64,000 nucleotides of DNA from an uncultured Pelagibacteraceae bacterium. Lineage in GTDB: Bacteria > Pseudomonadota > Alphaproteobacteria > Pelagibacterales > Pelagibacteraceae. A program made the translations under genes and the position numbers. Shown piece by piece: positions 9,892 to 42,898 of the stretch; the stretch's first letter is position 1, and every line of letters starts with the position of its first letter. The notes under the pieces were generated by a model that saw only the letters and a list, made by a program, of their open reading frames with translations, did not search any database and was not told the DNA's origin. The DNA lies in the NCBI GenBank assembly GCA_902613065.1, contig CACMFU010000002.1, forward strand, positions 1 through 64,000. Direction: 5' to 3'.

Positions 9892-11444
9892 TATATAAGT
9901 TTTTCCTTATGTTTATTTTTGATGACATAGTAAGCAGTAATCAAACGAGCAATGAAATATACTGAAAATAGTGTTGTAAGTATTCCAACTCCAAGAGTTA
10001 TAGAAAATCCTTTAATTGGACCTGAACCCATGAAAAAAAGGATTACTGCAGCGATTAAAGTTGTAATATTGGCATCTAAAATTGTTGTTCGTGATTTTGT
10101 ATAACCAGAATCAAAAGCTACAATTGAATTATTTTCATTTTTTAATTCTTCTTTAATTCTCTCAAAAATTAAAACATTTGCATCAACAGCCATACCTACT
10201 GTTAAAATAATACCTGCAATTCCAGGAAGTGTAAGAGTTGCCTCAAATAATGTTAGAATACCGACTAATAAAAATAAATTAGAAATTAAGGCTAAGTTAG
10301 CAATTAAGCCAAAAAATCTATATTTATAAAACATAAAGGCAACGACTAAGATAAATCCTATTATCAATGACATAATTCCTGCATTAATTGAGTCTTTTCC
10401 AAGGTCAGGACCTACAGTTCTTTCTTCGATAATATTAAGTGGAGCCGGCAAAGCACCTGATCTTAAAAGTAAAGCTAAATCTGTTGCTGATTGAAAGGTG
10501 AAATTACCAGATATCTGTCCATTTCCTCCAATAATTGGTTCTCTGACTTCAGGAGCACTAATAATTTTTCCATCCAAAACAATTGCTAACCTTTTTCCAA
10601 CACCATTTGAAGTCGCTTTACCAAACTTTTTTGCTCCTACCCTATCTAAACTAAATGAAACAACTGTCTCATTAGTTTGATTATTCATAGTTGGCTTGGC
10701 ATCCATAAGATTATCACCACTTAAAACAATTCGTTTACTAACAATGGCCTCACTAGAGCCATCCTCAAAAGAAAGTTTTTCTGTTCCAAATGATTCTTCA
10801 GAACTACTGGATATAAATTGGAATGTTAGGTTTGCTGTTTTACCTAATAAAGATTTAATTCTACCAGGATCGTCTAATCCTGGCAACTCAACAAGAATTC
10901 TATCATTACCTCTTTTTAAAATATTTGGCTCATTAGTTCCTACTTCATCAACTCTTCTTCTTACAATTTCAATTGCTTGATCTAATGAGGAATTTTTTAA
11001 CAATACTAATCCATAGTCAGAAAATTCTAACTTGAATGAGGTATCCATGTTTTCAAAGTTAAATTGATGTGATTTATATTGTTGAAAATAAGGATTTATC
11101 TCACTTTTATCATCATCTAAAAGAGATTTAACATCTTCAATCTTAGAATTTTCAACATCGAATATAATTGACTTATCCTCAATTACAAAATTTCTAACCT
11201 TAATATCTTTATCTTTGAAAAATTTTTTAAACTCTAATACTTTACTTTGCAATCTTTGAGTAATGACTGGTTCGTTATCTATCTCTAACAATAAATAAGA
11301 ACCACCTTGTAAATCTAATCCTAATTTTATATTTTTTGAGAAAAATTCATCATCAACTTTTGTAAAGTTGGAAATAGTAAAATATGAAATAATAAGTGTA
11401 AAAATTAAAACACTAAAAACTCTTAATTTAGAAAAATATAACAC
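9891..11444 (-). CDS. secD: protein translocase subunit SecD
   Basis: 517 aa; LGLDLQGGSYLLLE, GMAVDANVLIFERIKEE motifs. Confidence 0.97.
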   Translation of the reverse strand: MLYFSKLRVFSVLIFTLIISYFTISNFTKVDDEFFSKNIKLGLDLQGGSYLLLEIDNEPVITQRLQSKVLEFKKFFKDKDIKVRNFVIEDKSIIFDVENSKIEDVKSLLDDDKSEINPYFQQYKSHQFNFENMDTSFKLEFSDYGLVLLKNSSLDQAIEIVRRRVDEVGTNEPNILKRGNDRILVELPGLDDPGRIKSLLGKTANLTFQFISSSSEESFGTEKLSFEDGSSEAIVSKRIVLSGDNLMDAKPTMNNQTNETVVSFSLDRVGAKKFGKATSNGVGKRLAIVLDGKIISAPEVREPIIGGNGQISGNFTFQSATDLALLLRSGALPAPLNIIEERTVGPDLGKDSINAGIMSLIIGFILVVAFMFYKYRFFGLIANLALISNLFLLVGILTLFEATLTLPGIAGIILTVGMAVDANVLIFERIKEELKNENNSIVAFDSGYTKSRTTILDANITTLIAAVILFFMGSGPIKGFSITLGVGILTTLFSVYFIARLITAYYVIKNKHKEKLI

Positions 11445-11456
11445 TTTAGGAAGTTA

Positions 11457-11741
11457 TTATTTTTTTGGTTCAGCGTTAGTAACTAGTCCTTGTATTCCTG
11501 TAGCTCGAACAATTTCAACTTTAACATTATCAGCTATCATAACTTCTACTTTTTCATTATCGATAACTCGTTCTACAGTGCCAACGATACCGCCAGACGT
11601 AATAACTTTATCTCCACGCTTTAAAGCTTCAACCATAGCCTTGTGTTCTTTAACTTTCTTTTGCTGGGGTCTAATTAAGAAAAAGTAAAATATTACGAAT
11701 ATTAAAATTAGGGGTATAAATTGTCCAATTCCTGCGTCCAT
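11457..11741 (-). CDS. yajC: preprotein translocase subunit YajC
   Basis: 94 aa; FYFFLIRPQQKKVKEH, GDKVITSGGIVGTV; upstream of secD. Confidence 0.95.
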   Translation of the reverse strand: MDAGIGQFIPLILIFVIFYFFLIRPQQKKVKEHKAMVEALKRGDKVITSGGIVGTVERVIDNEKVEVMIADNVKVEIVRATGIQGLVTNAEPKK

Positions 11742-11798
11742 GTTAAGTCCTTAAAAAGTTAACGATTATTTATACCATATACTTTTAGAAGACAACTC

Positions 11799-13058
11799 TT
11801 AATTGATACCTATTTTCTCCATATTGTTCATATATGGTCTTAGTTTTTCAGGAATAATTATTGAACCATCCTCAGTTTGATAATTTTCTAATATCGCAAT
11901 TAAAGTTCTACCAACGGCAAGTCCGCTCCCATTTAAAGTACCAACAAATTCATTTTCGTTATTATTATTTTTATATCTAGCTTTCATTCTTTTAGCCTGA
12001 AATGTTCCACATGAAGAACAGCTTGATATTTCTCTATATTTATTTTCAGATGGAAGCCAAACCTCTATGTCATAAGTTTTTTCTGCACTAAAACCCATAT
12101 CACCAGTGCTTAAAATAATTTTCCTGTAAGGTAATTGTAAATCATCTAAAATTTTAGTTGCACAATTAGTCATTCTCTCTAGTTCCTCAATACATTTGTT
12201 ATTTTCTACAATACTGACTAATTCAACTTTATAAAATTGATGTTGTCTAATCATGCCCTTGGTATCTTTACCATAACTTCCTGCTTCTTTTCTAAAACAA
12301 GGTGTTGATGCAACTAATCTCATTGGCAAAGATTTTAGATTTAATATCTGATTTTTAACCATATTAGTTAATATTACTTCTGCAGTAGGGATTAAAAACT
12401 TTCTATCATTTTTATCATCAAACTTAATTTCGAATTGATCATTTTCAAATTTGGGCAATTGACCAGTTCCAAACATAGTGTTGTCTGTAGCCATTAAAGG
12501 TGGAGAGATTTCAGTGTAGCCATTATTATTGACATGTGTATCAATCATAAAATTAGAAATTGCTCTTTCTAATGATGCTAATTTGTCTTTAACAAAAACA
12601 AATCTTGATCCAGTTGTTTTTGTTGCTAAATCAAAATCTAACATATTTAGTTTTTCACCAATTTCATAATGAGATTTTGGTTTAAAATTCATTTCTTTAA
12701 TTTCACCAGATTTTACAACCTCTTTATTGCTATTTTCATCCTTACCTACGGGGACATCATTCAATGGTAAATTAGGAATATTACTTAATATCTGATCAAG
12801 TTGGTCTTTAACATTTTTTTGATTTTTACTTAAATCATCTATTTTATTTGAAATTTCTTTTGACTTTTCAAAAAGGGTTTCATCTTTAGATTTAGAAATA
12901 GATTTTTTTTCCATTTCTAATTTTTCTTTTTCTTGAATTAATTTTCTATTTTCTTCATCAAGATTTAATATTTGGTCAAAGTCTACATCAACGTTTCGAT
13001 TTTTAATTGTATTTTTAAAATTATCGATATCTTTTCTAATATCCTTAATATTGTGCAT
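11799..13058 (-). CDS. serS: seryl-tRNA synthetase
   Basis: 419 aa; class II motifs, CFRKEAGSYGKDTKGMIRQHQF. Confidence 0.97.
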   Translation of the reverse strand: MHNIKDIRKDIDNFKNTIKNRNVDVDFDQILNLDEENRKLIQEKEKLEMEKKSISKSKDETLFEKSKEISNKIDDLSKNQKNVKDQLDQILSNIPNLPLNDVPVGKDENSNKEVVKSGEIKEMNFKPKSHYEIGEKLNMLDFDLATKTTGSRFVFVKDKLASLERAISNFMIDTHVNNNGYTEISPPLMATDNTMFGTGQLPKFENDQFEIKFDDKNDRKFLIPTAEVILTNMVKNQILNLKSLPMRLVASTPCFRKEAGSYGKDTKGMIRQHQFYKVELVSIVENNKCIEELERMTNCATKILDDLQLPYRKIILSTGDMGFSAEKTYDIEVWLPSENKYREISSCSSCGTFQAKRMKARYKNNNNENEFVGTLNGSGLAVGRTLIAILENYQTEDGSIIIPEKLRPYMNNMEKIGIN

Positions 13059-31674: not shown

Positions 31675-32199
31675 ATGCTTAAATTATACGTTATGCGTCA
31701 TGCAAAATCTAGCTGGGACCACCCAAATCTTGATGATCATGAAAGACCATTAAGTAAGCGTGGCGAGAAAAATGCAAAAAAGATTTGTGAATTTTTTGTT
31801 AAAAACAATTATAAGTTTGATTACATATTACTTTCATCATCAAAAAGAACAAAGAAAACCCTAAAAATTTTATTAAAAAAAATAGATAAACCAAAAAAAA
31901 TTATTTCTTCAAAAAAATTATACTTATCAAGTGAAGATAAAATTATAGATATAATAAAAAAAATACCAAAAAAATATAAATCAGTGCTTTTAATTAACCA
32001 TGAACCTACTGTTAGAAATCTAATACGATCACTGACAAAAAATCACAACAACAACCATTTTAAATTATTAAACTACAAATTTCCGACATCGGCATTTGCA
32101 AAAATTTATTTTGATTTTAATGAATGGAATAAATTAGATGGAAATGGTTTAATTAAAGAATTTACTAGACCTAAAGACCTTCAAGATTCTAAAGAATAA
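31675..32199 (+). CDS. sixA: SixA-type histidine phosphatase
   Basis: Start chosen at 31675 (MLKLYVMRHAKSSWDHPNLDDHERPLSKRGEKNA); RHA/RHG motif. Confidence 0.88.
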   Translation: MLKLYVMRHAKSSWDHPNLDDHERPLSKRGEKNAKKICEFFVKNNYKFDYILLSSSKRTKKTLKILLKKIDKPKKIISSKKLYLSSEDKIIDIIKKIPKKYKSVLLINHEPTVRNLIRSLTKNHNNNHFKLLNYKFPTSAFAKIYFDFNEWNKLDGNGLIKEFTRPKDLQDSKE

Positions 32200-32864
32200 C
32201 CTGCTGATCTTACAGTTCTAATTAAAGGCTTAGTATTATCTATATTAATAGCCTGTCTTAATCTTCTGATATGCACATCGACAGTTCTAGTTTCAACGTA
32301 AATATTTTCTCCCCAAACATTGTTTAAGAGTTGTTCTCTTGAATATACCCTTTTTGGATTTTTGATAAAAAAATCTAATAATTTAAATTCTGTAGGTCCT
32401 AGAGATATTTCAATGTTATTTCTATAAACTCTTTTTGTTATTCTATCTATTTTTAGATCTGTAAACTCAACAACATCAAAGGTGGATTGTGGTTTTGATC
32501 TTCTGAGTAAAGATTTAATTCTTGCATTAAGTTCTTTTTGACTAAATGGTTTTGTTACATAATCATCTGCACCTGTATCAAAAGCTCTTAATTTGTCCTC
32601 CTCCTCGCCTTTTGCTGTTAACATTATTACTGGTATGTCATTATGCTTTTTGTCTTTTTTTAAATTTTTACATATTTCAACGCCTGACAAATCGGGCAAC
32701 ATCCAATCCATTAATATTAAGTCAGGAAGCTTATCTTTAATTTGTTTAAGCGCATCTTCACCATTTTCACAGAAACTTACTTTGTAACCTTCTTTTTCAA
32801 GGTTATACTTTAGTAGAGTTATTATAGCAGCCTCGTCCTCAGCTATAAAAATGTGAGCCGACAT
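32181..32864 (-). CDS. phoB: phosphate regulon response regulator PhoB
   Basis: 227 aa; receiver + winged helix; ends beside phoU-pstBACS. Confidence 0.94.
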   Translation of the reverse strand: MSAHIFIAEDEAAIITLLKYNLEKEGYKVSFCENGEDALKQIKDKLPDLILMDWMLPDLSGVEICKNLKKDKKHNDIPVIMLTAKGEEEDKLRAFDTGADDYVTKPFSQKELNARIKSLLRRSKPQSTFDVVEFTDLKIDRITKRVYRNNIEISLGPTEFKLLDFFIKNPKRVYSREQLLNNVWGENIYVETRTVDVHIRRLRQAINIDNTKPLIRTVRSAGYSLES

Positions 32865-32867
32865 ATT

Positions 32868-33575
32868 TTACTTTTCTCCAGTAACAATAGGTTCTGTGCC
32901 TTTTGGTCGATCACCCTCTAGATATTCTCCCTTAACTAAATAATATACTTGCTCAGCAATGTTGGTTGTATGATCACCTATTCTCTCTATATTTTTAGTT
33001 ACAAATAATAAGTGGGTTCCATCACTTAAGTTATTTTCGTTATCTTTTAAATATCTAATCACTTCTTGCATGCATAAATTTGTTAAATCATCAATTTGTT
33101 CGTCGCTTTCCCATACATTAATTGCCATACTCGAAGATCTTTCTAAATATGCATCTAATATTGATTTCAATTGTTTTTGAGCATCCGAAGATACTCTTAT
33201 AATAGCATCTACTAAATTTTTTGGTAAATTTTCATTTAACAAAAGAGTTCTTTTAGAAATATTTTTTGCTAAATCACCTATTCTCTCAAGGTCAGAAGAT
33301 ATCTTTAAAGCAGTGACTGTTTCTCTAAGATCTATGGCCATAGGTTGTCTTAAAGCAATTAAATTTACTACTTGCTGTTCAATTAAAGTCTCAAATTTAT
33401 CAATTTTTTCATCATCTTTAATTACTGCCTCAGCATTATCACTATTTCTTGTAGTAATTGCTTGAATAGCTTTACCCAAAGCTTCTTCACAAAATCCGCC
33501 CATTTTAATTATATTGCTATTTAAATTTTTAAGTTCTTCTTCGTAAGACTTTACTGTATGTGGTGCTTCGGTCAT
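32868..33575 (-). CDS. phoU: phosphate signalling protein PhoU
   Basis: 235 aa; PhoU repeats, ISSDLERIGDLAKNI and KNIERIGDHTTNIAE. Confidence 0.96.
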   Translation of the reverse strand: MTEAPHTVKSYEEELKNLNSNIIKMGGFCEEALGKAIQAITTRNSDNAEAVIKDDEKIDKFETLIEQQVVNLIALRQPMAIDLRETVTALKISSDLERIGDLAKNISKRTLLLNENLPKNLVDAIIRVSSDAQKQLKSILDAYLERSSSMAINVWESDEQIDDLTNLCMQEVIRYLKDNENNLSDGTHLLFVTKNIERIGDHTTNIAEQVYYLVKGEYLEGDRPKGTEPIVTGEK

Positions 33576-34330
33576 TATCCAAACCTCCCTGTGATATAAT
33601 CCTGAGTTTTTTTGTTTTCTGGATTCTTAAATATTTTATCAGTAGAACCATGTTCTATCAATTCTCCAAGGTGAAAAAAACCTGTATTTTGAGAAACTCT
33701 TGCAGCTTGTGCCATTGAGTGAGTGACTATTATAATAGTATGGTCTTTTTTTAACTCATCAATTAGTTCTTCTATTTGAGCTGTAGCAATAGGATCTAAA
33801 GCAGAACAAGGCTCGTCCATTAGAATAACTTCAGGTTTAACTGAAATTGCCCTTGCTATACATAATCTTTGTTGTTGACCACCAGACAAACCAGTACCTG
33901 GTTCATGAAGTCTATCTTTCACCTCTTCCCATAATGCTGCCTTTTTTAAGCTAGTTTCAACTATTTCATCCATTTCATTCTTTGATTGAGCCATACCATG
34001 AATTGTTGGACCATAAGAAATATTTTCATAAATAGTTTTAGGAAAAGGATTTGGTTTTTGAAAAACCATACCAATTTTTTCTCTTAATCTAACAACATCA
34101 CAACTTTTATCATTGATATCAAAATCATTAATTATAATCTGCCCTTTTACTCTACATATATCAATAACGTCATTCATTCGGTTTAGACATCTTAAATAAG
34201 TAGATTTACCACAACCTGAAGGACCAATTAATGCAGTAACTTGATTTTCTTCAATATCTAAATTTATATTGAATAGAGCTTGTTTTTTTCCATAGTAAAC
34301 ATCTACATTTTTTGAATTTATCTTTATCAT
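33575..34330 (-). CDS. pstB: phosphate ABC transporter ATP-binding protein
   Basis: Start chosen at 34330 ([19 protein letters not shown]); [30 protein letters not shown]. Confidence 0.96.
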
Positions 34331-34331
34331 C

Positions 34332-35600
34332 TTAACTCCATTTTTTTTCAAATTTATGTCTAATTATTTGTGCAAATAAGTTCATTATAATTAAAAATCC
34401 TAATAGAACCATAATACAAGCAGAAACTTTCTCGACAAAACCTCTTTCAGCGCTCTCTGCCCAAATATAAATTTGCACTGGCAAACTTGCAGCTGGATCT
34501 AAAGGAGATCCTGGTATTGTATTTACAAAAGCCACCATGCCAATCAATATCAAAGGTGCGGTTTCGCCTAAAGCTTGGGCCAAACCAATTATTGTACCGG
34601 ATAAAGTCCCTGGCATAGATAACGGAACTGTATGATGCATTGTAGTTTGCATTTTACTAGCACCCATTGCAAGTGCTGCCTCTCTTATACTTGGAGGAAC
34701 TGCTTTTAAAGATGCTCTACAAGCAATAATAATTGTTGGTAAAGTCATCAACGATAAAGTTATTCCACCGACTAGAGGTGTTGACCTAGGTAATTGAAAT
34801 ACAGCAAGTAAAATACCCAGTCCTAAAAGACCAAAAACAATTGAAGGTACTGCTGCTAAATTATTTATATTTACCTCAATAAAATCAGTAAATCTGTTTT
34901 TAGGAGCAAATTCCTCTAAATAAATAGCTGCTAGAACTGCTACAGGAAAAGCTATCATTAAACAAACAAGTATAGAAAATATTGATCCCATAAATGAACT
35001 TGCTATACCAGCTAATTCAGCTTCTCTTGAATCAGGATATGTAAAAAAACTTAAATTGAATTTACTTTCAACTTTTCCTAGTTCTACAAGTTGATCAAAA
35101 ATCTTTAATTGATAATCCGTAACTCTTCTTTGATCTTCAGGTAAATCTCTTGGATAATTGCCTTTAAATACTTGATCTAAATCATCTGAGGCAGTTAAAT
35201 AAACATCTTTAGTTTTTCCAATTAATGAAGGGTCGTTTAAAAGTTCCCTTTTAATCTCTCTTTCGAAAAAGTAAGAGACCATTCTCTTCAGCTCATTTTC
35301 TTGATCCTCATTAGCATTTGGATCCAAATCAGCCATTGATTTTAATGCTATATCGTAATAATCAGCATCTTTTAAATCCTCTTTAGAAGGATTTTGCTCT
35401 AACATCATTAATTCAGCATCAAAAGTAACTGGAACAATAAGCCAAGTTTTTTGAAAGGCTGAATAGCCTGTCGAAAAAATTTTAAAAATAAAGATTGTTA
35501 AAAATAAAAGTGCCATAAAAATTGCACTTTGACCGTATAATCGAAATCTCTTTTCAGCTTTATATCTTTTATTTAATAATTGTTCTTTATTTTTATTCAT
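34332..35600 (-). CDS. pstA: phosphate ABC transporter permease PstA
   Basis: 422 aa; [26 protein letters not shown]. Confidence 0.95.
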
Positions 35601-36978
35601 ATTTTTCTCTATATTTTTTAACTACTCTTAAGGCCACAATATTCAAACAGAGCGTTACTAAAAATAATGACATACCTAAAGCAAATGCAGCTTGCGTTTT
35701 TGGGTCGCCAAAAGCTTGATCTCCAATTAATATTACAACAATTTGCGCTGTAATTGTTGAAGTAGATTCTAATGGATTTAAAGTTAAATTAGCAGCTAAA
35801 CCAGAGGCCATAACAACTATCATTGTTTCTCCAATTGCTCTTGAAACACCAAGCAAAATAGATCCAACTATACCAGGCAATGCTGCAGGAAAAATAACTT
35901 TTTTTATTGTTTCTGATTTGGTTGCTCCCATGGCATAACTTCCATCTCTTAAACTTTGAGGTACACTTGTAATCACATCGTCACTTAAACTTGAAATGAA
36001 TGGTATAATCATAATGCCCATTACTCCGCCTGCCGCTAAAGCGCTTTCAGCTGAAACGTCTAAACCCATGCTATTACCTATTTCCTTTAAAAAAGGTCCA
36101 ACTGTTAGAGCAGCAAAAAATCCATAAACAACTGTTGGTATACCAGCTAAAATTTCAATTAAAGGTTTTGCGTATTGTCTAACTTTAACTGATGCATACT
36201 CAGCCAAATAAATTCCACTCATTAGTCCAATAGGAATAGCAACACACATAGCTATGAAAGCAATAAAAAAGGTACCAGCAAAAATAGGGACTGCTCCAAA
36301 AGTATCGGAGTACATTGTCGGATCTAAAGCCTCTGAAGAATCTCTAACAAAAGCTTTTGCAGGATACCAATGAGTTCCAAAGACAAAATCAAATAATGGA
36401 ATTACTTTAAAAAAATCTATAGTTTGAAATATAAGTGAAAATACTATTCCAACAGTAGTTAATATTGCAGCTAAAGAAGCTGTAAATAAAACTGCTTTCA
36501 AAAATTTTTCAACTGGTTCCCTTGTTCTAGAATTAGATGAAATTTTTTTATAAGCGTAAGCAACAGAGGCAATAATTATAGATAATACTATAACAGCTTT
36601 TGAACTTTGAGCTATTGATCGAAGACTTAAATATTTTTCAGCTGAAGCCTCAATAAAAGGTGTAATTTCTCCGGTAAATTGTCCTCGAGACAATGCTTTT
36701 GTTTTTTCGTAAATTAAATTTAATTCATCATCAAGATAGCCTTGATTTGAATAATCACTTAAGATTAATAATTTTACAATTGTGGGCTCAAAAATTGCCC
36801 ATAAAGAAAAAATTATAAAAGCTGGTATTGCACACCAAATTGCAAGATAATAACCATAAAATTGTGGTAATGCAGTTAATCTTTTATTTGTAGATTGAAT
36901 TGTATAAGCTTTTCTACGTCCAAAATAATAACTTGTGAAACCCAGAAGAACAATAAATGTAAACAATATTAAGTTCAA
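35593..36978 (-). CDS. pstC: phosphate ABC transporter permease PstC
   Basis: 461 aa; RDGSYAMGATKSETIKKVIFPAALPGI. Confidence 0.95.
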   Translation of the reverse strand: MNLILFTFIVLLGFTSYYFGRRKAYTIQSTNKRLTALPQFYGYYLAIWCAIPAFIIFSLWAIFEPTIVKLLILSDYSNQGYLDDELNLIYEKTKALSRGQFTGEITPFIEASAEKYLSLRSIAQSSKAVIVLSIIIASVAYAYKKISSNSRTREPVEKFLKAVLFTASLAAILTTVGIVFSLIFQTIDFFKVIPLFDFVFGTHWYPAKAFVRDSSEALDPTMYSDTFGAVPIFAGTFFIAFIAMCVAIPIGLMSGIYLAEYASVKVRQYAKPLIEILAGIPTVVYGFFAALTVGPFLKEIGNSMGLDVSAESALAAGGVMGIMIIPFISSLSDDVITSVPQSLRDGSYAMGATKSETIKKVIFPAALPGIVGSILLGVSRAIGETMIVVMASGLAANLTLNPLESTSTITAQIVVILIGDQAFGDPKTQAAFALGMSLFLVTLCLNIVALRVVKKYREKYE

Positions 36979-37069: not shown

Positions 37070-38101
37070 TTAATTACCCATAGCAACTAGCTTCGTAGCA
37101 TTAGTTCTAGTTGTTTTATACAATTTAGAGTCTAATGGAACTAAACCAATATCTGCTAAGTAACCACCTTTTCCAATAGCTTTCTTAGTTGTGAATTCTT
37201 TCACAAACTCATGTAATCCTGGGATTACTCCAACGTGAGCTTTTTTCACATAGAAAAATAATGGTCTTGCAACTGCATAACTGTAGTCTTGAATACTCGC
37301 TAGAGAGGGTTGTCCACCATCTATGCTAGCAGCTTGTAATTTATCTTTAGCAGCTAAGAAATAGCTGAAACCAAAGAAACCAAACATATCTTTATCTTGA
37401 GTTAACTTTTGGATGATTAAACTATCGTTTTCTCCTACTTCAATAGCAGCTCCATCTTCTCTGTAAAGTTTTTGTGGTTTTTTGTATTTTTTATTTCCAG
37501 CCTCATAACCAGCTTTATAAAGAGCTTTAGCTTCTTTAGTCATACCTTTTTTCATTACTAAAGAATTCCAAGCATCTCTAGTTCCTGATGTTCCTGGTGG
37601 GATCATTACTGAAATTTTTTGTTTTGGTAAGCTAGGGTCAATTTGGTCCCAAGTTTTATAAATATTTGGAACTAACTTACCATCAACTACTGTATGAGCA
37701 GCTAATGCTAAATATAATTGTTCTTTAGTAAAGTTTACTGGTTTTGCATCTTTGCTGTAAGCTAATGTAATACCATCGTTACCAATTACGATCTCAACAA
37801 TATCATTTACACCATTTTTCTTACATAGGGCTTTCTCTTTGTCTTTCATAGCTCTTGATGCATTTGTAATATCTGGATGTTGCTCACCAACACCAGCACA
37901 GAATAGTTTAGCTCCTCCACCAGTACCAGTCGACTCGATTACAGGAGTTTTGAATCCTGAACCACCAAATCTTTCAGCAACAACAGTCGCGTAAGGGAAT
38001 ACTGTAGACGAACCAACTATCTTAATTTGATCTCTTGCTTGAGCAACAGTTGCTATTGATAGAGCAACTAAAGAAGCAATCACTATAGTTAGTTTTTTCA
38101 T
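37070..38101 (-). CDS. pstS: phosphate-binding protein PstS
   Basis: 343 aa; signal peptide, IKIVGSSTVFPYATVVAE, ESTGTGGG. Confidence 0.96.
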   Translation of the reverse strand: MKKLTIVIASLVALSIATVAQARDQIKIVGSSTVFPYATVVAERFGGSGFKTPVIESTGTGGGAKLFCAGVGEQHPDITNASRAMKDKEKALCKKNGVNDIVEIVIGNDGITLAYSKDAKPVNFTKEQLYLALAAHTVVDGKLVPNIYKTWDQIDPSLPKQKISVMIPPGTSGTRDAWNSLVMKKGMTKEAKALYKAGYEAGNKKYKKPQKLYREDGAAIEVGENDSLIIQKLTQDKDMFGFFGFSYFLAAKDKLQAASIDGGQPSLASIQDYSYAVARPLFFYVKKAHVGVIPGLHEFVKEFTTKKAIGKGGYLADIGLVPLDSKLYKTTRTNATKLVAMGN

Positions 38102-38171: not shown

Positions 38172-38189
38172 ATTACAGAATTATTACAG
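38172..38189 (-). promoter_or_regulatory. Pho box CTGTAAT-aatt-CTGTAAT upstream of pstS
   Basis: Two identical 7-mers at 11-bp spacing on the minus strand; weaker third repeat TTTTAAC at 38194-38200. Confidence 0.85.
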
Positions 38190-38210: not shown

Positions 38211-38819
38211 TTAGTTGTATTTCATTGAGACAATAATCTCACTATTTTCAGTTTCTAGACCACCTTTGCATGAAACTGGATTTACGTTATCCTTAAAAGC
38301 AAGATCTGGGGTTGGTCTTAAGACAACTTCCAGTTTTACCAAATTAACTAATTCCTCAAGAACACTTTGGTCATAACGCCATTTTGGCCAACTAGTAGGA
38401 GTAGAAAAAATAGATGTTAAATAGCTTGTCGCCATAGTAAACCTATAATTACTCATATTTTCATTTCTCAGTAAATGATCTCTAACAGAATTAAATATGT
38501 TTCGACATCTCAATGAATCTGACATGTAGTTCTCTTTTTTTAAATTTTCATTTACTGGAATTGAAACAATTAAATCTACTGTATTTCTCCAATAGGAACT
38601 GAGAACATCTATATATATATCTTCGTATGGTACATCTTTATGTTTTTTTATTTCAGGATATGCACTTTTTAAGTCTTCCTGTAATCTAAAGATACCAATA
38701 TCAAAAACAGTTAATTGCTGGTTTCTTAAAATTGTAGAAATATCAGATGCATTACTTTTAGTAATGATCGACATTAAAAAAAAAATAATAATTAAAATAC
38801 TATGTAATATCTTAATCAT
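38211..38819 (-). CDS. secreted protein of unknown function between phoR and pstS
   Basis: 202 aa; signal peptide MIKILHSILIIIFFLMSIITKSNASD; no family recognised. Confidence 0.75.
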   Translation of the reverse strand: MIKILHSILIIIFFLMSIITKSNASDISTILRNQQLTVFDIGIFRLQEDLKSAYPEIKKHKDVPYEDIYIDVLSSYWRNTVDLIVSIPVNENLKKENYMSDSLRCRNIFNSVRDHLLRNENMSNYRFTMATSYLTSIFSTPTSWPKWRYDQSVLEELVNLVKLEVVLRPTPDLAFKDNVNPVSCKGGLETENSEIIVSMKYN

Positions 38820-38913: not shown

Positions 38914-40062
38914 TTATTTTGTTGGAAGATATATCTTAATTTCAGTACCTTCATTAACTTTACTGAGAATCTCATAGTCACCTCTGTGTTGAGATATAAT
39001 ATGTTTCATTATAGCTAAACCTAAACCTGTACCACCAACCTTTTTACTTTTTTCTGTATCTACTCTAAAAAATCTCTCAGTTATTCTTGGAATTAGCTGG
39101 TGAGGTATTCCGACACCTTCATCTTTAATGCTAATGGCAATATTTTTATCAATTAATTTACCTTCACTATTTTGACTTTTTACGTATATATTTTTTCCAT
39201 CTTGTGAATATTTAATTGAATTATCAATTAAATTTGAAAATACAGTTAACAATTTATCATTATCACCAAAAACTAAGGTTGGTTCCATAAGTTCAATATG
39301 TAAATTGATTTTCTTTTTTTTAAGAATTAATTCAAAGTTACTTTTAATATTTGTAAAAAGATCATTTAAGCTCACAATTTTATTAGGCTTGATATGTTCT
39401 TCCAATTCAATTCTACTTAAAATCAATAAATCATTGATTAGGTTTTCCATTCTTAATACTTGATCAGACATGATAGACATAAATTTTTTTTGCGCCTCTT
39501 GGTCTTTTGAAGCTGGTCCAAGAATAGTTTCTAAAGAACCTTTAATCGAAACTAAAGGTGTTCTTAATTCATGACTCACATTTGCAACAAAATCAGTTTT
39601 TAGTTTTTGTGCTTTTGTTATTTCTGTAAAATCTTTTAGAAACAATACGACAGAGTTTATTTCTGGAAACAAATAGGTCGGACCAGGAATAACATAGATT
39701 TTGTAAAGTTGATAAGATGGTAAATTTATTTCTACATTGACATTTTTTGTAGTTTGATCTTTGATAGCCTCTTCAATCGTTTCTAATAATTTTGTATCTC
39801 TTATTACACTTGAAATATTTTTATCAATTAAGTTTTCTCCAAAACGTTGTTTTGCACTTTTGTTTAGATATTTGATTAAATTATATTTATCTAAAGCAAA
39901 GAATTGATCTTCTAATTCTTCAATAATTACTCTTTTTCCTAAATCATCCTTATTGGTCTTATTTACAACTGGAGCTGTATTTTCTGGCTTAATATTTTTT
40001 TTAAATAAAAAATATAATAAAATAATTATTACAACTATGAGTATCAACTCTGTCCAAAACAT
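38914..40062 (-). CDS. phoR: phosphate regulon sensor histidine kinase PhoR
   Basis: 382 aa; TM anchor, PAS-like region, VANVSHELRTPLVSIKGSLETI, GGTGLGLAIMKHI; pho gene context. Confidence 0.92.
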   Translation of the reverse strand: MFWTELILIVVIIILLYFLFKKNIKPENTAPVVNKTNKDDLGKRVIIEELEDQFFALDKYNLIKYLNKSAKQRFGENLIDKNISSVIRDTKLLETIEEAIKDQTTKNVNVEINLPSYQLYKIYVIPGPTYLFPEINSVVLFLKDFTEITKAQKLKTDFVANVSHELRTPLVSIKGSLETILGPASKDQEAQKKFMSIMSDQVLRMENLINDLLILSRIELEEHIKPNKIVSLNDLFTNIKSNFELILKKKKINLHIELMEPTLVFGDNDKLLTVFSNLIDNSIKYSQDGKNIYVKSQNSEGKLIDKNIAISIKDEGVGIPHQLIPRITERFFRVDTEKSKKVGGTGLGLAIMKHIISQHRGDYEILSKVNEGTEIKIYLPTK

Positions 40063-40096: not shown

Positions 40097-41104
40097 TTAA
40101 TAATTAGGTGAAATATTTTCAAAAAATATTTTTGCTGTTTCTTCCCATGAATATTTTTTTGCAAAATCAAGACAATCTTGGCGACTTACCTTCAAAGCTT
40201 TTAAAGCAGAAGCCTTCAAATCATCATCTAAAGTATCAATATTAGTACCCCCTAATATATCTTTAGGTCCCGGCACAGGGTAAGCTGCAACTGGTGTACC
40301 ACAATTTAATGATTCCAAAACAACAATACCAAATGTATCAGTTTTACTAGGAAAAACAAAAACGTCTGATGATGCAAAATGAGATGCTAATTCTCCATTA
40401 GTCTTTTCACCTAAAAAAATATCATTTGGATATTTTTTTTTCAAATTGTTTAGGTCTGGACCTTTTCCAATAATAACTTTAGTACCTTCAAGATCGAGAT
40501 CTAAAAATGCTTTAATATTTTTTTCAACTGCAATCCTACCAACATATATCCATATAGGTCTTTTATAAGGTAAGTCTCTCTTAATGGGGTTTTTAAACGC
40601 GCCATGATTACCTCCCCTGGTCCATGTAACCATTTTATTGTTATCAATACCTAAAGAAATTAACTCTTCACGCATGGATTCTGTTGTCACTAAAATTCTT
40701 TCAGCTTTATTATGAAAATTGCATAAAAATTTTTCTGACCATTTAGCTGGAATGATAGGCATATAAAGTTTCATGTATTTATCAAATCTTGTGTGAAAAC
40801 TTGTGGTAAATTTTAAGCCATTTTTAATGCAATGTCTTCGTGCCATAAACCCTAAGGGTCCTTCTGTTGCAATATGTATTGCATCAGGTTTAATTGAATT
40901 AATTAAATTACTTACACGGGGCCAAACATTTAAGGACAATCTAATTTCATTATATTTTGGCATTGGCACGGTAAGAAATTGTTGAGGAGTAATATATTCA
41001 ATAGTTTGACCTTGTGACTTAAGAATTTCACCAGTTTCGTGGAGAGTTCTTACAACACCATTAACTTGAGGGTAATAAGCATCGGTAACAATTAATATTT
41101 TCAT
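40097..41104 (-). CDS. glycosyltransferase family 4, probable diacylglycerol glycosyltransferase (Agt-like)
   Basis: 335 aa; DAYYPQVNGVVRTLHETG, PSKTDTFGIVVLESLNCGTPV; adjacent to PlcP-like gene. Confidence 0.82.
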   Translation of the reverse strand: MKILIVTDAYYPQVNGVVRTLHETGEILKSQGQTIEYITPQQFLTVPMPKYNEIRLSLNVWPRVSNLINSIKPDAIHIATEGPLGFMARRHCIKNGLKFTTSFHTRFDKYMKLYMPIIPAKWSEKFLCNFHNKAERILVTTESMREELISLGIDNNKMVTWTRGGNHGAFKNPIKRDLPYKRPIWIYVGRIAVEKNIKAFLDLDLEGTKVIIGKGPDLNNLKKKYPNDIFLGEKTNGELASHFASSDVFVFPSKTDTFGIVVLESLNCGTPVAAYPVPGPKDILGGTNIDTLDDDLKASALKALKVSRQDCLDFAKKYSWEETAKIFFENISPNY

Positions 41105-41107
41105 TCT

Positions 41108-41914
41108 TTAAGATGCTTTTTTGAATGAACCGATCCTGTTATTATCAATATTTTCTGAAATATATTCGTTTCTTTTTTTATCCCAATAAATTATCTCAAA
41201 AGTTCCATCATATTTTTCTGCCAAGGCTGTACATGACTCAACCCAATCGCCACAATTTAAATAATTAACACCATCAAGATTTAAATTTTCAGCATGATGT
41301 ATGTGTCCACAAATTATTCCATCAAATTTTTTCCTTTTTGCATATGAAGAAAGTGTGTTTTCATATTCACCTATAAATTTTACAGCATTTTTTACCTTAT
41401 ATTTTAAAAATTTTGCTAATGACCAATAGTCTTTACCTCTCAATTTTCTAAAAAAATTTATAATAACATTAATTTTAAGTAATAATTCATAGGCAATGGC
41501 TCCTAATTTAGAAAGCCATTTAGCATATTTCATTACTCCATCCCAAGCATCACCATGAACAACTAAATATTTTTTTCCTAACTGCGTTTCATGAATAACT
41601 CTATTTACTATTTTAATATCACCTAAATGCATTGGAATAAATTTTCTAAATATCTCATCATGATTTCCAATTATGTAAAATACTTTTGTCCCGTGCCTGG
41701 CTTTTCTCAATATTTTTTGTATGACATCATTATGCTCTTGAGGCCAATAGAAATTCTTTTGCATTGCCCAAACATCGATTATATCTCCAACTAAATAAAG
41801 GTTCTCGGATCTTGAATTCTTAAAAAATTCTAAAAGCTTGTTAGCTTGACAACCTTTGGTACCAAGATGCACATCAGATATAAATATACTCTTATATTTT
41901 AATAACGGAGGCAT
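41108..41914 (-). CDS. plcP: metallophosphoesterase, PlcP-type phospholipase C candidate
   Basis: 268 aa; ISDVHLGTKGCQA, VGDIIDVWAM, GNHDE, VHGDAWD, CGHIHHAE, NCGDWVESC. Confidence 0.8.
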   Translation of the reverse strand: MPPLLKYKSIFISDVHLGTKGCQANKLLEFFKNSRSENLYLVGDIIDVWAMQKNFYWPQEHNDVIQKILRKARHGTKVFYIIGNHDEIFRKFIPMHLGDIKIVNRVIHETQLGKKYLVVHGDAWDGVMKYAKWLSKLGAIAYELLLKINVIINFFRKLRGKDYWSLAKFLKYKVKNAVKFIGEYENTLSSYAKRKKFDGIICGHIHHAENLNLDGVNYLNCGDWVESCTALAEKYDGTFEIIYWDKKRNEYISENIDNNRIGSFKKAS

Positions 41915-41929
41915 TAAAAAAACCTATTT

Positions 41930-41946
41930 TGTAACACAACTGTAAC
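41930..41946 (+). promoter_or_regulatory. Pho-box-like direct repeat TGTAAC-acaac-TGTAAC
   Basis: Exact 11-bp repeat in plcP/DAG-kinase divergent intergenic region. Confidence 0.6.
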
Positions 41947-42013: not shown

Positions 42014-42898
42014 ATGCATTATTGTTTGATTTATAACCTTAATTCTTCAACAGGGAAAAAAATAAAATTTGTAAATAAGATTTATGAAAAATTAAAAATT
42101 AACAACTCTGTAGATTATTTCAAAACTAAATCTGAAAAAGAGGCGAAAGAAATATTTTTGGAATTTAAAAATAAAAATTATGATAGATTGATAGTTGCTG
42201 GTGGAGATGGATCAGTATCATTTGCAATCAATGAATTGATAAAAAATGACTTTGATTTTAATGATAAATTTGCAATTGGGTATATACCAGCTGGAACAGC
42301 CAATTTACTTCAAGCAGAGTTATCGATAAATAAAAAAGTAGATGATATTTGTAATATTTTAACATCAAATAACTATAAACAATCTAATCTTATAAAAATA
42401 AATAAAAATTATTTTTTTTTAATGGCTGGTATTGGTTGGGATGCTAAAATTGTTCACTCTATTGATACACGTATAAAAAAAATACTTGGTAAGATAATAT
42501 TTGGTTTAAAAGGGTTTCAGCATTTTTTATTTATGAAAAATAATAAACTTGATGTTTTCTTTGATGGTCAAAAACATCAAGCTGATTGGATATTAAGTTC
42601 TAATACCAAATATTATGCTGGTCATCATAAGATAAATAAGTCAAACATTTTTGATGATAGATTAATAACTTATGTCTTTAAAGATTTAAGTAGGCTAAAA
42701 CTAATGTATTATATTATTTTGATAATTATTTATGGAGATTTATCAAGAAACAAATCTGTTATAACTACCTATTCAAAAAGTATCCAAATTAATTGCAATA
42801 ATTTTGAAATTCCCGTTCAGGTTGATGGAGATAATTTTGGATGTCACAATAAGATTGATATTGAATTTTCAAAAAAAAAAGTAAATTTTTTACTATAA
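42014..42898 (+). CDS. diacylglycerol kinase family lipid kinase
   Basis: 294 aa; IVAGGDGSVSFAINEL, GYIPAGTANLLQAEL, QVDGDNFG. Confidence 0.85.
   Translation: MHYCLIYNLNSSTGKKIKFVNKIYEKLKINNSVDYFKTKSEKEAKEIFLEFKNKNYDRLIVAGGDGSVSFAINELIKNDFDFNDKFAIGYIPAGTANLLQAELSINKKVDDICNILTSNNYKQSNLIKINKNYFFLMAGIGWDAKIVHSIDTRIKKILGKIIFGLKGFQHFLFMKNNKLDVFFDGQKHQADWILSSNTKYYAGHHKINKSNIFDDRLITYVFKDLSRLKLMYYIILIIIYGDLSRNKSVITTYSKSIQINCNNFEIPVQVDGDNFGCHNKIDIEFSKKKVNFLL

Follow-up and report, generated by a model that had tools for sequence, protein, structure and literature searches.

The marine SAR11 bacteria have two exchangeable high-affinity pst cassettes, one of which, the A-type (phoR-X-pstSCAB-phoU-phoB), always includes a gene for a probably secreted protein whose family is uncharacterised. 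We use X as a working name for this 202-aa protein, which is encoded at 38211-38819 of the window, the 64,000-nucleotide stretch of DNA analysed here. What is new is that X is tied to one of the two pst cassettes and is lost in a natural swap between them. Since the A-type cassette always carries X beside pstS, the A-type importer probably has a part so far undescribed. SAR11 bacteria are the most abundant heterotrophs of the surface ocean, and they are phosphate-limited over large regions. If the importer normally works with a further periplasmic protein, affinities and specificities measured on isolated PstS could be misleading, and the difference between A- and B-type cassettes becomes a testable trait.

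The initial annotation had set a 202-aa protein between phoR and pstS without giving its strand. The ORF is indeed there, begins with ATG and lies on the minus strand, with phoR upstream and pstS downstream on that same strand. X is a real gene under purifying selection: in the mature region, dN is below dS in comparisons of the window's X with orthologues that are 66-99% identical to it, with a wide margin in every pair except the closest (0.044 against 0.67 for locus L058). Moreover, orthologues were found in 136 of 297 Pelagibacterales genomes, with intact copies in more than 100. Hydropathy and alignments agree with the signal peptide and two cysteines claimed for X at the outset. The N-terminus is hydrophobic (KD19 maximum of 2.5 at residue 1, and at most 0.93 everywhere after residue 25), no TM helix or other hydrophobic segment follows, and all relatives share the same signal-peptide-like N-terminal design. 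We place the signal peptide at about residues 1-25 (38745-38819, minus strand), with a cleavage site that was set by eye and whose exact position is an estimate. X has exactly two cysteines, Cys105 (codon 38505-38507, minus strand) and Cys184 (38268-38270, minus strand), which are invariant in alignments A3 and A6 and probably pair in a disulfide. The window's own genome has a match to the DsbA family, but since this family also takes in other oxidoreductases, we gave the match no weight as evidence. Across phosphate-linked members, the pI of the mature protein ranges from 5.5 to 9.5. In one locus (L125), X matches its counterparts in L082 and L132 almost perfectly over the first ~50 residues but at only about 60% identity thereafter, which suggests a recombination junction within the gene.

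X lies in a SAR11 operon that runs on the minus strand in the order plcP-agt-phoR-X-pstSCAB-phoU-phoB. The first genes encode a PlcP-like metallophosphoesterase (41108-41914; Metallophos), a glycosyltransferase of the lipid-remodelling type, Agt (40097-41104; Glyco_transf_4 and Glycos_transf_1), and the histidine kinase PhoR (38914-40062; HisKA and HATPase_c), which, by hydropathy, is anchored by a single N-terminal TM helix and lacks a periplasmic domain. Downstream of X is pstS (37070-38101), whose product is assigned to the A-type phosphate-binding proteins and is related to PDB 9JWY (E 1.4e-186). It is followed by pstC (35593-36978), pstA (34332-35600) and pstB (33575-34351), identified from their ORFs and context, and by two ORFs (32868-33575 and 32181-32864) that we take, by recognition and from their position, to be phoU and phoB. 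A diacylglycerol-kinase-like gene (42014-42898, plus strand; DAGK_cat) diverges from plcP. In three related loci (L128, L129 and L130), two opposite-strand genes of about 275 and 245 aa, which look like lipid-synthesis acyltransferases, sit between agt and phoR.

The Pho box that had been noticed just past the X stop codon is also present. It begins 22 nt beyond the stop, at 38188 on the minus strand (CTGTAATAATTCTGTAAT), occupies 38172-38188 upstream of pstS (TGTAATAATTCTGTAAT) and shows conservation across the pst loci compared from three genera. Matches to TGTAAY-N5-TGTAAY number 2 in the 64-kb window against 0.0 expected from 30 first-order Markov randomisations. The second match (41930-41946, plus strand) lies between plcP and the divergent diacylglycerol-kinase-like gene and points toward the latter; the same sequence is found again in many related loci. 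Relative to X, one box thus comes after the gene and one lies far upstream, and none stands clearly before it. The 94-bp gap between phoR and X holds a stretch that is similar among close relatives and no clear Pho box. With X ahead of the pstS Pho box, the layout makes co-transcription with phoR, or a start of its own in this gap, the likelier arrangement.

As first reported, X belongs to no recognisable family: profile searches of Pfam, NCBIfam and PDB with X, its relatives and profiles built from them returned none. This holds for solute-binding proteins (PstS- or PBP-like) and for periplasmic phosphatases (PhoA, PhoX, PhoD and acid phosphatases). Single-member profiles gave weak matches to AvrM (PDB), Bud32, RC1041, LlsX, CUT and SH3_17 (E 0.005-0.5), which we dismissed as chance. 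Eight residues are invariant across the remote members (L31, D40, G42, C105, F138, A174, C184 and L188), and their alignment shows no invariant His and no metal-site pattern. Structure prediction, one of the checks proposed for X, produced two AlphaFold2 models with mean pLDDT of 41.0 (27 full-length rows) and 40.4 (20 mature rows), from input rows that are all at least 81% identical; this confidence is too low to yield a usable structure. Searches of viral contigs and phages found no relatives of X, and we rejected viral origin or carriage.

Within this SAR11 family, the association of X with its neighbours is strict. pstS immediately follows X in 80 of 80 loci, and phoR precedes it in all 78 whose contig extends far enough, so the phoR-X-pstS order that was to be checked is conserved in this SAR11 family. 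A PstS was found in 205 of the 297 Pelagibacterales genomes. In the window's family these proteins fall into two groups by identity to the window's PstS, A (about 77-100%) and B (about 56-68%), and A-type PstS forms a single clade (support 100/100). X occurs in every one of the 125 genomes with A-type PstS versus 2 of the 49 with B-type (Fisher p about 1e-40, a figure that ignores relatedness). In the window's genus none of 34 B-type genomes has X, and in other genera 2 of 15 do. One of these exceptions (G061) has an X-pstS pair with phoR absent there; in the other (G131), X shares a 14-nt overlap with phoR, no pst gene comes directly downstream, and the pst genes are found at another place. 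A further genome (G306) has X as a fragment at a contig end and no PstS match. In locus L132, a second phoR-like gene (11181-12275), 40% identical to the window's PhoR, lies upstream of the A-type cassette and probably survives from a B-type cassette that was replaced.

Two genomes of one genus, G246 and G196, record a natural swap. Their plcP and agt genes are 99.6% and 99.4% identical, respectively, and residues 1-43 of PhoR are identical, with identity of only 60% over the whole of PhoR and 67% for PstS. X is present in G196 and absent from G246. Where G196 (locus L123) has an A-type phoR-X-pst block, a B-type phoR-pst block has taken its place in G246 (locus L145), joining within phoR after residue 43. 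As plcP and agt were kept at ~99% identity while the rest of phoR and pst were exchanged and X disappeared, X goes with the cytosolic part of phoR and pstSCAB rather than with the lipid-remodelling genes. The co-occurrence with PstS type and this swap together indicate that X follows the importer. The sole stretch of PhoR within reach of a periplasmic protein is the same in both genomes, with and without X. Over 14 loci, the pairwise identity of X correlates with that of PstC (r 0.92), PstS (0.91), PhoR (0.80), PlcP (0.80) and Agt (0.73), values that partly reflect the shared ancestry of the loci. Recombination disrupts the tracking in places, as between the window and L084, where PstS is 99%, X 82% and PhoR 67% identical.

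Beyond SAR11, X profiles reach the Azospirillaceae (32 of 79 genomes, Azospirillum included) and, more thinly scattered, further members of the Alphaproteobacteria (13 of 385 genomes from this class); a single weak match (G827) falls outside the class. Most remote relatives adjoin no phosphate genes. In Azospirillaceae the neighbours are presumably a YheT-like hydrolase gene with hemB, or ksgA, and G346 carries two diverged X-family genes in tandem (L201, 5615-6732). Outside this SAR11 family most homologues have no phosphate genes nearby, so phosphate-specificity is not a property of the whole X family. Three further lineages have an X relative inside a Liv-type ABC, Yej-type ABC or TRAP cluster with solute-binding proteins (L197, L199, L207 and L208). 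In f2 Pelagibacterales, X stands directly before an ABC ATPase gene, and the cluster also encodes two periplasmic binding proteins (the one tested is a Peripla_BP_6 protein). In G424 it abuts a permease gene on one side and an ATPase gene on the other, with an SBP_bac_5 protein encoded upstream, and in G448 three DctP genes are followed after a few nt by X. With pst counted, the binding proteins in X-linked clusters belong to four different families, and such clusters account for 4 of about 13 distinct contexts (binomial 0.03-0.12, with baselines of 10-15% assumed). Most remote relatives, in about 9 of the 13 contexts, adjoin unrelated genes, so this recurrence may serve as a lead and is only suggestive.

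That X is exported, cassette-bound and importer-linked is, in our judgement, quite probable. As to its action, the reading we prefer, at a probability of roughly 45%, is that X would assist a binding-protein-dependent importer, here the A-type Pst, from within the periplasm. Sec would export X to that compartment, where it would be soluble, about 21 kDa in size and probably stabilised by the one Cys105-Cys184 disulfide. There it could aid PstS in capturing or handing over ligand, or in docking on or gating PstCA, presumably in contact with PstS or PstCA; any effect on Pi signalling would be indirect, through PstSCAB-PhoU-PhoR. The initial annotation had suggested a periplasmic phosphate-scavenging or signalling factor. 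Secretion and pho/pst synteny agree with that suggestion, but X bears no sign of an enzyme and direct signalling to PhoR is unlikely; "part of the phosphate importer" fits X better than either term. Counting for a helper are the contrast of 125/125 with 2/49 genomes, the G246/G196 swap, the tracking of PstS and PstC, the A-type clade, the X-pstS pair of G061, the signal peptide with its two cysteines and the relatives in transporter clusters. Counting against it are the AlphaFold pLDDT of 40-41, the unrelated genes beside most remote relatives, the B-type cassettes without X and the position of X before the pstS Pho box. The fast evolution of X (82% identity where PstS has 99%, window versus L084) and its pI range are not what a tight, conserved contact surface would usually show.

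X could instead regulate the PhoR kinase from the periplasm, binding the sensor or its signal and tuning the Pho response. phoR adjoins X in 78 of 78 testable loci, overlaps it in G131 with no pst gene directly downstream, and in several loci is cut off from agt by the two opposite-strand genes, leaving phoR-X as a pair of its own. However, PhoR, with its single N-terminal TM helix, exposes only a few residues outside the membrane and lacks a periplasmic domain, and its N-terminus is identical in cassettes with and without X, which makes direct signalling unlikely. X also tracks PstS and PstC better than PhoR, it lies beside pstS in G061 where phoR is not found, and B-type cassettes have PhoR without X. 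We therefore consider a PhoR regulator unlikely. Alternatively, X might play no role in transport and be a general envelope protein that the A-type cassette picked up and now carries along, which would suit the many non-phosphate, non-transport contexts of the remote relatives (hydrolase/hemB, ksgA, the tandem pair). Such a passenger seems doubtful to us given its tight linkage across several genera in streamlined genomes, the purifying selection on it, its loss exactly upon the pst swap and its relatives in three other binding-protein transporter clusters.

It is very unlikely that X is a periplasmic enzyme or organic-phosphorus binding protein feeding phosphate to PstS. X resembles no phosphatase or phosphoesterase family, its eight invariant residues include no His and form no metal-site pattern, and its relatives adjoin transporters of other families. 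Its location in a P-starvation cluster is consistent with such a role, as are the enlarged cavity and weak glycerol-3-phosphate binding described for the A-type PstS of HTCC7211 in PMC12421899. The same paper, though, describes the cavity residues as relatively conserved across further SAR11 PstS proteins, which means that the cavity is no mark of the A-type. Returning to the helper of the importer, we offer as a tentative and speculative extension that X founds an undescribed family of disulfide-bonded periplasmic accessory proteins for Pst, Liv-type and Yej-type ABC and TRAP importers in Alphaproteobacteria, and would be the missing fifth phosphate-importer component in a large share of SAR11 cells.

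The cultured strain HTCC7211 very probably carries X. The PstS of G067 is 100% identical to the PDB 9JWY chain, which is the HTCC7211 protein, the lengths of its pstS and pstC equal those given for HTCC7211 within one base (PMC3030594), and this genome has X at C1:997487-998101 (L125). The pst locus tags of PMC3030594 gave no route to X, and literature searches turned up no record of its expression in HTCC7211. Because the strain is in culture, proteomic and transcriptomic study of X is feasible now.

ZinT is an auxiliary periplasmic protein of the ABC importer ZnuABC, and X would resemble it in its proposed role, that of a small secreted helper beside an importer dependent on a solute-binding protein. 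This is an analogy of role only, since X shows no sequence relation to it (Pfam and PDB searches were empty) and no metal-site pattern. The SAR11 island with pstSCAB-phoU and phoB-phoR is the same operon as ours, and two divergent versions of the pst cluster, with <60% amino acid identity, had been noted at one genomic position (PMC7318151, in the text available). CpPstS of HTCC7211 (PDB 9JWY), the same A-type PstS as here, was purified and crystallised alone (PMC12421899, in the text available). The accessible parts of these two papers make no mention of X, its strict tie to one cassette version or its loss in swaps. In HIMB59, another streamlined marine alphaproteobacterial order, phosphate-related flexible islands likewise combine exchangeable pst/phoBR genes with extra genes, as in SAR11, and the extra genes include hypothetical proteins (PMC10734472).
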